This document shows, piece by piece, positions 29,850 through 59,017 of a stretch of DNA of 64,000 nucleotides. Origin of the DNA: Halorubrum sp. PV6 (lineage in GTDB: Archaea > Halobacteriota > Halobacteria > Halobacteriales > Haloferacaceae). The notes beneath the pieces are model-generated. The model worked only from the letters and a program-made list of their open reading frames with translations, did not search any database and had not been told where the DNA came from. The number at the start of each line of letters is the position of its first letter. Within the stretch, counting starts at the first letter, position 1. Where the stretch lies: contig NZ_CP030064.1 in NCBI RefSeq assembly GCF_003990725.2, forward strand, positions 372,001 through 436,000, written 5' to 3'. Made by a program: the position numbers and the translations under genes.

Positions 29850-30213
29850 TCACCCCCGGTGCCGGAACGAGACGACGGTGCCGATCGTGTCCTCCCCGTC
29901 GAGTCCCTCAGTGGTTACGGTCGGGGAGACGACCGCGTCGGCGCCGAGCGCCTCCTCTATCACCGCCGTGAGCGCCTCGGAGTCGGCGCCCTGTTGTAAC
30001 ACCGGTACGCGGACCTGCTGTCGGTTGACGGCGACGTCGCCGAGGTCGTAGTCGGTGTGTTCGAACGCGTCGCGGATCGCCGCTTGGATGTCGGTCGTAC
30101 CGTAGACTCCGTCGGCAGAGCAGAAAAAACGGACGGCCGGTCGGTGGCCCCACGATTTCGACTCCAGACGGCGCTGTCTGTGGGGAATCCCCCCGAAGTC
30201 GCGATCTACACAC
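29850..30213 (-). pseudogene. Broken gene: one-base frameshift in a T6 run
   Basis: From the TGA at 29850-29852 leftwards the minus strand has about 90 codons of clear haloarchaeal coding character (acidic, GC-rich third positions; for example YGTTDIQAAIRDAFEHTDYD and VVSPTVTTEGLDGEDTI), but the frame has no start codon. A GTG at 30211-30213 sits about 20 bases downstream of a TATA-like AATAAATA and opens a second frame. The two frames join if one T is removed from the T6 run (top strand A6, 30124-30129), giving about 120 residues. I do not recognise the protein. It may be a recent frameshift mutation, a slippery site or an assembly error. Confidence 0.55.
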
Positions 30214-30307
30214 CGATATTAATTTACTATTTATTAGTATTCAAATATCCTAGATTAGTTAGCGCAAAACGGGTTAGATGTTATTATCACGCGATTTCTT
30301 GTGTAAT
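30214..30307. promoter_or_regulatory. AT-rich divergent promoter region
   Basis: Strongly AT-rich DNA in an otherwise GC-rich chromosome. Leftward, ATTTATTAG (about 30227-30239) sits about 20 bases from the GTG at 30213. Rightward, GTTATTATC (30280-30288) sits about 24 bases from the ATG at 30308. It separates the broken gene from the small secreted-like protein. Confidence 0.55.
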
Positions 30308-30439
30308 ATGCACGAAAGTGTTGCAGACTACGTGGCAGAGCACCCGAAGATGGCCGGCGTCCTGTTCACCGCGCTCCTCCTGTTGACGCAGGCGGCGCCC
30401 GCGGCGGCGAACGCAGCAGTTGGAAACCCCGGCCCTTAA
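30308..30439 (+). CDS. 43-residue signal-peptide-like protein (DUF7503-type)
   Basis: A 43-residue protein: short polar N-terminus (MHESVADYVAEHPKM), a hydrophobic helix (AGVLFTALLLLTQAAPAAAN) and the tail AAVGNPGP. It resembles a family of tiny haloarchaeal proteins I believe is called DUF7503, which share the YxxxHP(K/R)M start, one helix and a C-terminal Gly-Pro. The AAA/ANA pattern could be cleaved by signal peptidase, leaving a peptide of about seven residues. It has its own TATA box. Its stop codon overlaps by bases the stop of the opposing CHAT protease gene. The function is unknown. Confidence 0.75.
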   Translation: MHESVADYVAEHPKMAGVLFTALLLLTQAAPAAANAAVGNPGP

Positions 30440-32559
30440 TCAATACTTAATCGATCGGTCCAGTGTAGCTGATCGTTCATAAAAACAGGGAGCATTTCTA
30501 GGTCAAAAAATGCAGTTATGTCACCCCTAGGAATGTCCTCAGAGGTTATCTTGGATGGAACGTAATAATCCTCTTCGACTGTCTCTAGATTGAGCGCAGC
30601 GAGGGAGCCAACTCCGTGGTTTCTATTTGGGAATACCTCGGCAGACACCGTCCAACGGTTATCGGCCTGCTTTTGAAGATCGGCGACAACGGCGATGCCG
30701 CTCCTATTCTGGCATATCGTCGTTGCTCCGTCGCCAACCACGATGTACTGATGCCCGGTGATCAGTTCCCGCTTCGCGACGTGAAGTGCGGTTCGGAGGT
30801 TGAACCCGCTGTTCATCAGCCGCGCGATGATGCGGCCGAGTTGGGTCGCCGGCGAGTTCGCCACGTCGGTGAGGGTGACGATGCCGCCGCGAGAGCCGCG
30901 GTGGACGAGCGCCTCGCCCTGGTGGTACGACTGACAGGCGTTGAGGAGGAACGCGCTGACGCCGACCGCGAGGTCCTCGTTCGTCAGGTCGAGGTACTCG
31001 TCGGTACACTGCATCCCGCGGTCGTCGACGTGCCCGATGTAGTGAAGGAAGTCGACGTCGGAGGCGAGCGCCTCGCGCATCTCCTCGCGGGTGAGGTCGT
31101 GGCGCACGTCGATGTCGAACTGGACCATGTCGCGGAGGCCGTAGAGGTCGGCCACTTCCCCCTCCGCGCGCATCTGCTCGTCGTTGCAGACGACGAGGAC
31201 GGAGATGCGCGACTGCTCGACCGCGCCCGCCTCCAACCGGCGGTGGTACGCGTCGAGCGTGGCCTTGTTGGCGTCGAGCGGGACGCCGGCGCCGACCCAC
31301 GCGTGCTCGACCGTGTCGACCGGCTCCGGCTGCACGAACTCGGTGTCGGCCGCCACCGCGCCGCGCTCTCCCGACGCGTCGGCGCCGCGGGTCGGTGTGG
31401 CGGGCGGCGCTTCGGCGGCTCCCCGCACGAACTCGTTCGGCCCGAGCGCCGCCGCCTCGGTCCCCGGTCCGCGGAAGAATCCGAGGCCGTTGTCCGCGCC
31501 GGCCGTCGCGGGCGTGACCGTCTCGGGCGCGCGGACGATCGACAGCTCGCCGGCCACGAACGGGAGCAGTTCGACGTTCTCCGGCTCGGGGCGCACGTCC
31601 GTGGTCAGCGTCCACTGGGGGAGTTCCGACTCGACGCGCTCGAAGGGGACCGCGAGGTACTCGCCCAGCCGCGTCGCGAGCGGGAGGTCGTACAGCCGCC
31701 CCCAGTCGAGGTCAAGCGCGGTGGTCTCGCGCTCGTGGAGGTCGACCGGGTAGAACCCCTCGGTGCGGGCGAGACAGTCGAAGTGAAACGCCTGCCGAAG
31801 CGCCTCGGCCGCCCGCCGCTCGAAGTCGGGTTCGAGCGCGTGCGTCCACCCGTCGCCTTCGATCCGCGGCGGGTCGCCGGGGACCACCTTGGCGGCGAAG
31901 TAGTACGCCAGCGAGACCACCGGGTAGAGGTAGCGGTACTCCGGCGGGACGACGATCCGCACCCCGGAGTCGGTCGGCTCGACTCGGTCGGGCACCCGGA
32001 GCCGCTCGCCCGGTTCGATCAGCGGCGGGTGCCCGCGGAGCGTCGGGAACGACCGCTCCGGGCTCGTCGTCTGGAGCGCGGAGCCGAGCAGCGAGACGGC
32101 GTCCATCAGCGACTCGGGGTCCGTCGGCGTCTCGATCGTTCCCGCCGGAACCTGGTGGAGCGACCGGAACCCGAGCGTCACCTCGGCGGGCGCGTTGAGG
32201 TCGATCCGGGTCGTCCGGTCCGTCGTCGACACGGAGAAGGGGGAACTGAACGAGAGGTACAGCTTCGTCGGGGCGGGGTCGATTCCGACATGGTACTCGC
32301 CCGCCGGCAGCGCGTAGTCGTCGCCGCGAGTGAGCAGCGTCCCGTCGCCGGAGCGGGCCTCGACGACCGCGACGCGCGGGATCTCGATCCCCCCGGTCTC
32401 GACGGTCACGCTCGCGTCGACGGGGAAGTAGTGTGCCGTCTCGGGGGCCGCGGCCGGCTCGACCGGCCGGTCCGTGTACAGCTCGAACTGCGTGTTCTCG
32501 ATGTGGTCCGTGACGGTGAGCCCGGCGGCGTCGGGGAGCGGGTCGATGTCGATGCTCAT
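30436..32559 (-). CDS. CHAT domain (caspase-like) protease
   Basis: A 707-residue protein. Residues from about 470 form a CHAT domain, the caspase-like peptidase also known from bacterial immune and separase-related proteins. The catalytic dyad is visible as His510 in LHYIGHVDDRG and Cys542 in LLNACQSYHQGE, so it is probably active. The first 450 residues are an uncharacterised region, partly beta-rich (RIDLNAPAEVTLGFRSLHQV), presumably for sensing or substrate recruitment. There is no signal peptide or membrane helix. The ATG at 32557-32559 begins MSIDIDPLPDAAGL; the upstream frame is shadow sequence. It overlaps the 43-residue gene tail to tail by 4 bases, suggesting functional linkage. Confidence 0.88.
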   Translation of the reverse strand: MSIDIDPLPDAAGLTVTDHIENTQFELYTDRPVEPAAAPETAHYFPVDASVTVETGGIEIPRVAVVEARSGDGTLLTRGDDYALPAGEYHVGIDPAPTKLYLSFSSPFSVSTTDRTTRIDLNAPAEVTLGFRSLHQVPAGTIETPTDPESLMDAVSLLGSALQTTSPERSFPTLRGHPPLIEPGERLRVPDRVEPTDSGVRIVVPPEYRYLYPVVSLAYYFAAKVVPGDPPRIEGDGWTHALEPDFERRAAEALRQAFHFDCLARTEGFYPVDLHERETTALDLDWGRLYDLPLATRLGEYLAVPFERVESELPQWTLTTDVRPEPENVELLPFVAGELSIVRAPETVTPATAGADNGLGFFRGPGTEAAALGPNEFVRGAAEAPPATPTRGADASGERGAVAADTEFVQPEPVDTVEHAWVGAGVPLDANKATLDAYHRRLEAGAVEQSRISVLVVCNDEQMRAEGEVADLYGLRDMVQFDIDVRHDLTREEMREALASDVDFLHYIGHVDDRGMQCTDEYLDLTNEDLAVGVSAFLLNACQSYHQGEALVHRGSRGGIVTLTDVANSPATQLGRIIARLMNSGFNLRTALHVAKRELITGHQYIVVGDGATTICQNRSGIAVVADLQKQADNRWTVSAEVFPNRNHGVGSLAALNLETVEEDYYVPSKITSEDIPRGDITAFFDLEMLPVFMNDQLHWTDRLSID

Positions 32560-34857: not shown

Positions 34858-34875
34858 CCGCCCCGGCCGGGCGTC

Positions 34876-34938
34876 GGCACCACCGGTATCCCTTTCGGCA
34901 CCACCGGTATCCCTTTCGGCACCACCGGTACCCCTTTT
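34876..34938. repeat. Three tandem 21-bp repeats
   Basis: GGCACCACCGGTATCCCTTTC occurs twice exactly (34876-34896, 34897-34917) and a third time with two or three changes (34918-34938). Each unit contains ACCGGT, a palindromic core. The array lies just upstream of the ketopantoate reductase gene and covers most of its promoter region. Confidence 0.85.
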
Positions 34939-58634: not shown

Positions 58635-59017
58635 CGCAGCAGCGATAGGTCACTAATCAACCATCGGCCCTCGCGGGCCGACTCCTTCGCGGCTTTCTTT
58701 ATCAGACCCAACTCACCTAGCGACAGCCGTCGCGGTCGGCCGTGACTATCTGTCCGACACACTCTGCGTCGCTCTTCTCGACACTGTCGAACGCTACGCG
58801 AAGCGAGACCCTGGCCACACCGCGCTCTGTCACGCACACGCACACGAACGCCGTAGCGAAGCGGTTAAGGGCGAACCACAGGTACATTCGATAACTCGCT
58901 GGTGCGGACACAGCGGGCACTCGCCGCCGAGACCAGGGTCACCGTTGATCTCGCGTCTCGGGACGAGACGACATGTGGCCGCCTCGCGGCTGAATCGCAA
59001 CCGTCCGCGGACAACAT
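58635..59017. other. Gene-free region upstream of rpl15e
   Basis: Includes the hairpin CGGCCCTCGCGGGCCG (about 58662-58680) followed by T-rich DNA, which could end either fragment. An AT-poor GGTTAAGGGC near 58861 is the only promoter-like element, which would leave a long 5' leader for L15e. I see no ORF or RNA gene with support. Confidence 0.4.

Follow-up and report, generated by a model that had tools for sequence, protein, structure and literature searches.

The window analysed here, a stretch of 64,000 nucleotides from Halorubrum sp. PV6, includes a gene for a predicted CHAT-family protease that meets, tail to tail, a gene for a protein of only 43 residues, which raises the question of whether the two products form a dedicated pair and what the smaller may do for the larger. 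The two genes share 4 nt at their stops (30436-30439), where the overlap described in the earlier note is indeed seen. The larger gene is made up as follows.

30436..32559, minus strand: CHAT-family cysteine protease, 707-codon ORF (707 amino acids), stop codon included
31540..32559, minus strand: N-terminal region, residues 1-340, folded (mostly pLDDT >80)
31264..31539, minus strand: linker, residues 341-432, disordered and variable (pLDDT <50)
30724..31263, minus strand: catalytic domain, residues 433-612 (Foldseek matches; pN 0.054)
31030..31032, minus strand: codon of His510 of the catalytic dyad, invariant in 57 sequences
30934..30936, minus strand: codon of Cys542 of the catalytic dyad, invariant in 57 sequences
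30439..30723, minus strand: hypervariable C-terminal domain (CTD), residues 613-707, delimited by a step in pN, pS and GC3; proposed tail-recognition domain

The assignment of this protein cannot be made on the basis of its Pfam score, as PF12770 (CHAT) matches it with 19.1 bits, under the curated cut-off of 24, and is matched at E<0.01 by 13 of 57 homologues. Foldseek comparison of the predicted model against the PDB, by contrast, returned SAVED-CHAT, gingipain, separase and Craspase (7zoq) structures as top matches, with procaspase-3 lower down; the strongest (8tl0, SAVED-CHAT; E 1.4e-6) extends over approximately 200 residues and thus covers part of the protein only. His510 and Cys542 are both retained in 57/57 homologues, which, together with the fold matches, bears out the earlier description of a 707-residue CHAT protein with an intact dyad. 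On the basis of fold and dyad the protein is classified as a divergent member of the CHAT, or clan CD caspase-like, proteases, and proteolytic activity is predicted. The catalytic domain is the best-conserved segment (pN 0.054). No relative of residues 1-340 was found in Pfam and PDB searches, none of the 57 members carries a Pfam domain besides CHAT (TPR or other known N-terminal domain), the linker is variable (entropy of ~1.06 bits over residues 341-420) and a signal peptide is not recognisable. The CTD is modelled as an intact, small mixed domain (pLDDT 82) of near-constant length with conserved residues P644, G651, P668, E688, P691 and W700, with no PDB match at E <0.4.

The smaller gene and its upstream region comprise the following features.

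30263..30307, plus strand: putative promoter-like element, with a BRE-like GCGCAAAAC and a TATA-like TTATTAT ~27 nt before the leaderless ATG (a pattern recurring genus-wide)
30308..30439, plus strand: DUF7503 small protein, 43-codon ORF, stop codon included (PF24335, E 6.7e-20)
30308..30409, plus strand: leader, codons 1-34, with HPK, hydrophobic core, TQ and A-x-A; signal-peptide-like, predicted N-in by charge
30410..30436, plus strand: nine-residue tail NAAVGNPGP, predicted to be exposed or released, with six hypervariable residues followed by an invariant Gly-Pro

The 43-residue protein is a clear member of PF24335 (DUF7503; 70.9 bits against a curated cut-off of 27), a family for which no function is stated and which the earlier note, in describing a signal- or membrane-like product, had not named. 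A survey of 391 genomes of the haloarchaeal class, in which each genome lacking a CHAT relative was checked against the DUF7503 list, identified CHAT relatives in 365 genomes and DUF7503 in 335. All of the latter are among the CHAT-bearing genomes (335/365 versus 0/26; Fisher p 2.5e-25), with a CHAT relative and no DUF7503 in the remaining 30. The adjacent CHAT/DUF7503 pairs in the fetched loci are convergent in 172/172 cases, counted before de-duplication of genomes fetched twice; the genes overlap by 4 nt in 53 of these pairs and abut exactly (gap 0) in 26. The notion of a dedicated small partner, and the expectation that homologues of the two genes would regularly occur together, are therefore well founded. 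At one locus (L127:7070-9737) an apparent insertion separates the DUF7503 gene from the CHAT stop by 2.7 kb, while at two others (L069 and L075) the whole module is duplicated in tandem, 4.3-4.6 kb apart, with a tail of its own in each copy. No comparable short tail-to-tail partner was found beside four distant CHAT homologues (L260-L263) that belong to a single family of the phylum outside the haloarchaea. One of these four has lost the dyad, and a 170-residue convergent frame at L262 ends in Gly-Pro by happenstance.

The most constant feature of the small protein is its last two residues. Among 101 distinct complete CHAT/DUF7503 pairs, 100 end in Gly-Pro, compared to 69 of 7838 other long ORFs, and yet 96 different tails are found when the last nine residues are considered, a hypervariability which had been overlooked in the earlier note. 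These pairs use every one of the four codons for Gly and for Pro, and the Gly-Pro persists where the genes are separated by gaps of up to ~150 nt, so that the ending can be explained neither as a by-product of gene overlap nor as an RNA element. Outside the tail the family is conserved, incorporating [HN]P[RK], a hydrophobic core and [TS]Q, with an A-x-A-like site eight to nine residues from the C-terminal end in most members. All of the 98 distinct leaders carry Lys or Arg before the hydrophobic core and nearly no charge after it, a pattern which predicts an N-in leader with the tail exposed or released.

The AT-rich flank, read previously as a divergent promoter, is real (GC of 0.52-0.55 at positions 30000-30750 versus ~0.70 around it). 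It is, however, not promoter alone, as it spans CHAT codons 613-707 and the last eight codons of the small gene, and includes one further feature.

30413..30723, no strand assigned: exchangeable specificity cassette, formed by codons 613-707 of the CHAT gene and codons 36-43 of the small gene (steps in pS and GC3, DNA identity)

Comparison of 40 Halorubrum-group pairs distinguished this block from its surroundings on both sides, with pS and GC3 changing abruptly around codon 613 of the CHAT gene and codon 36 of the small gene. Codons 1-612 of the CHAT gene have a pS of 0.32-0.43 and a GC3 of ~0.94, while for codons 613-707 these values are 0.78 and 0.47, with a pN of 0.38. Similarly, pS and GC3 are 0.12-0.31 and 0.83-0.97 for small-gene codons 9-35, but 0.75 and 0.51 for codons 36-41 (pN 0.41), whereas the Gly-Pro codons show a pN of 0 at a pS of 0.71. 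The same trend is seen over 100 pairs, where mean GC3 falls from 0.88 (core) to 0.56 (CTD) on the CHAT side and from 0.85 (leader) to 0.58 (tail) in the small gene. Orthologues whose cores differ by 4-6 % mostly have CTDs that are 50-60 % different, while their flanking DNA is mostly 95-100 % identical; this hypervariability of the CTD, too, had gone unnoticed in the earlier note. Such excess CTD divergence also occurs outside Halorubrum (for example, 6 % in the core and 40 % in the CTD). In DNA alignments of close orthologues, identity is mostly 85-100 % up to the edge, drops to ~50 % over ~300 nt and rises again to 90-100 % within the small-gene leader. This dissimilar block of ~300-310 bp between flanks of high identity represents allele replacement rather than gradual drift. 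No second copy of the cassette was found in the genome of this strain, and the donors are thus presumably other strains; a diversity-generating retroelement would require the variable region to recur elsewhere in the genome as a template, and diversification by a retroelement or from silent cassettes was rejected because the cassette is single-copy. Positive selection cannot be claimed on the basis of dN/dS, since the synonymous sites within the block are saturated.

The alternative that the hypervariability arises simply because gene ends are weakly constrained or mutate with an AT bias is very improbable. Third positions are indeed AT-rich in the block (GC3 ~0.5), as this explanation would have it, but the block has sharp edges with DNA identity recovering on the far side, the CTD keeps its six conserved residues and near-constant length, and the Gly-Pro does not vary at the amino acid level where its synonymous sites do.

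The two variable ends also appear to change together. Given the core distance, CTD and tail distances are correlated (partial Mantel r 0.289, p 2e-4, n=40), as they are when the most uniform clade is left out (r 0.199, p 0.0024) and across 100 loci (r 0.176, p 5e-4), and tails resemble those of the CTD-nearest rather than the core-nearest relatives (nearest-neighbour test, p 0.002). The effect is modest (partial r 0.2-0.3) and partial Mantel tests can be anti-conservative; with these provisos the alignments indicate co-variation of CTD and tail over and above that due to phylogeny. Mutual information calculated site by site for the two was high, but is confounded by genus and was set aside. 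A natural control is provided by Haloplanus-type loci with a near-constant tail, where the CTD is neither hypervariable (distances of 0.14-0.27 versus 0.06-0.20 in the core) nor AT-rich.

In contrast to the cassette, the locus itself does not appear to move. In ~40 Halorubrum-group loci the pair occupies a fixed place between AspA/ThrC-like genes and regulator/pyrophosphatase genes, the AspA/ThrC neighbours are also kept in Haloprofundus, Halogranum, Halobium and Halegenticoccus, and those neighbours of the CHAT gene that could be identified in the window are housekeeping genes. Synteny of this kind argues for vertical inheritance and against a mobile island. Mobile anti-phage modules are recognised by defence homology, patchy occurrence and island context, while here PADLOC gave no match, CHAT relatives occur in 365/391 genomes and the position is fixed; no relative was found in phage and viral-contig searches, while relatives are present on 25 plasmids. 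The mobile and defence part of the module proposed in the earlier note was accordingly abandoned, exchange being confined to the ~310-bp cassette. Elsewhere in the window, three near-perfect 21-bp tandem repeats directly follow the ThrC-like gene (34874-34937), and an ordinary Rfam eL15 ribosomal-protein leader (RF03144) occurs at 58950-59001.

CHAT genes without a DUF7503 match often face another convergent ORF with a Gly-Pro ending. In four Haloplanus-type genomes (L063-L066) and a Haloplanus MAG (L147) this is a leaderless polyprotein of 13, 10, 7, 5 and 2 tandem tail copies, with units such as YTADGNSGGISGP; the array ends in Gly-Pro and shares 4 nt with the CHAT gene at its stop. Most DNA differences between the units are synonymous, the same type of array occurs in two more genomes of this genus, and GNSGAISGP is the ending of the DUF7503 protein in this genus. 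Partners in other genera have different hydrophobic leaders, or are leaderless ORFs of 29 residues ending in LDGSSSPYTGP; leaderless forms were seen in the Haloplanus-type loci, in G238 and G265, and in a Halococcus. The genomes G123 and G345 (L213-L225), which belong to one genus, have 14-16 CHAT-protein matches each, and most of the CHAT genes examined in them face an ORF ending in xGP plus 0-7 residues. Identical tails were found in 0/14 within-genome pairs of multi-copy genomes. Some CHAT genes stand alone. A second CHAT paralogue in the genome of this strain (L002; C1:967900-968955) has lost both catalytic residues, and no Gly-Pro partner was found within the 492 nt available downstream; the dyad is likewise lost in L222, for which no such partner was found. 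Such lone, dyad-less paralogues are in keeping with a coupling of catalysis to the partner, although several intact CHAT clades are also without a Gly-Pro partner found (L132/L133, L152, L186, L191-L195 and L218). In Haladaptatus (L132, L133), two intact CHAT genes lie in tandem upstream of a dihydropteroate synthase-like gene, with no clear Gly-Pro partner.

A lock-and-key pair, in which the CTD recognises its cognate tail and recognition gates the protease, is considered the probable explanation. It builds on the pairing, the invariant Gly-Pro, the hypervariable ends, the cassette replacement, the co-variation and the conserved dyad, while binding, gating and the export of the tail or its insertion into the membrane are inferred. 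The small protein would present a short C-terminal tail of six variable residues and Gly-Pro, the variable CTD would recognise the tail of its own allele only, and binding would control the protease. As the genes converge, placing lock and key sequences side by side, both could be replaced jointly through homologous recombination in the conserved flanking coding DNA, switching specificity in one step. A slight preference is given to a tail that acts as a ligand, activating or inhibiting, over one that is a mere cleavage substrate. Against the lock-and-key reading, the leader predicts an outward-facing tail, yet the CHAT protein has no recognisable signal peptide, some partners are leaderless, and there are the intact CHAT clades for which no Gly-Pro partner was found.

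An outward-facing tail would suit a secreted pheromone or kin signal, whereby signal peptidase frees the 8-9-residue tail, cells of the same type import it and the CHAT protein senses it, the alleles representing pherotypes. The charge distribution of the 98 leaders and the A-x-A-type site, whose distance from the end hardly varies, are in agreement with this, as is a hypervariable peptide adjoining a hypervariable partner domain with which it co-varies (partial Mantel p 2e-4) and is exchanged. However, the leaderless partners, the residues beyond Gly-Pro in some partners and the lack of a linked exporter or importer make this a possible but somewhat unlikely reading. The same predicted orientation counts against a membrane anchor, scaffold or inhibitor, in which a cytosolic tail tethers the CHAT protein to the membrane or to a tandem scaffold, inactive or clustered, and variability serves to insulate paralogues or escape viral mimics. 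This proposal covers both the membrane and the leaderless tandem forms, and tails do differ within multi-copy genomes; it is conceivable, if somewhat doubtful.

Alternatively, the active protease may cut its partner in the tail region, and the hydrophobic leader so released would act on the membrane in the manner of a mini gasdermin or a Csx30-like substrate. Dedicated linked substrates are known for CHAT proteases elsewhere (Csx29/Csx30, PMC10028731), the dyad is invariant in the paired proteins and the tandem units could serve as repeated cleavage sites. This is nevertheless rather unlikely, considering that the key motif lies at the extreme C terminus, with two residues downstream only, that leaderless partners have no membrane segment, and that hypervariability resides in the CTD, not the catalytic domain. 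A conflict pair resembling toxin-immunity or toxin-antitoxin systems, where one member is harmful without its cognate partner, appears distinctly unlikely, given the fixed chromosomal synteny, the absence of a PADLOC match and the 30 genomes with a CHAT relative but no DUF7503. Polymorphic conflict systems typically exchange cognate cassettes, and this, along with the two genomes rich in CHAT matches, most of those examined having a Gly-Pro-type partner, speaks in its favour. Class-wide self-recognition or peptide signalling, with an exported 8-9-residue, Gly-Pro-ended peptide read by the hypervariable domain of a caspase-like protease, and with species and strains changing type by swapping the ~310-bp cassette that holds lock and key together, is entertained only tentatively, as rather improbable.

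Should the lock-and-key reading hold, most haloarchaea would possess a self/non-self or signalling code composed of a caspase-like protease and a tiny peptide, none of which was found described for archaea, and DUF7503 would gain a role. Many natural lock-and-key pairs would be available for testing in laboratory haloarchaea, and the convergent layout would illustrate how two co-adapted gene ends are passed on and exchanged as one unit. No paper on DUF7503, or on CHAT domains together with Halobacteria or Haloferax, was found in the open-licence literature. The link of DUF7503 to CHAT proteases and its hypervariable Gly-Pro tail thus appear to be undescribed, which suggests a recognition system not described before. 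Partnered CHAT proteases and co-varying peptide-receptor cassettes are known separately, and their combination was not found described in that literature.

Among the former, Csx29/Csx30 of the type III-E CRISPR effector Craspase (PMC10028731), a TPR-CHAT system, shares with the haloarchaeal pair the CHAT His/Cys dyad, a dedicated linked partner and the fold match to 7zoq. Unlike Craspase, the haloarchaeal CHAT protein has no Pfam-detectable TPR or Csx30-like domain, its partner is a short hypervariable peptide, and no CRISPR effector was seen among the neighbours identified in the window. The SAVED-CHAT protease filaments provide the top fold match (8tl0), but this match is partial and the haloarchaeal N-terminal region has no recognised relative. 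In its working, the pair resembles the ComQXPA pherotypes of Bacillus, where a short variable peptide is likewise encoded beside a variable partner and incompatible groups result (PMC4408185, PMC4008528). There is no homology between the two, and here the proposed receptor is an archaeal caspase-like protease, the genes are convergent and secretion is only predicted. Finally, caspase-type activity has been reported in Haloferax volcanii despite a lack of gene homologues (PMC3615174); DUF7503 is present in the H. volcanii genome, and the CHAT protein would, if the lock-and-key reading is right, be a candidate source of this unexplained activity.
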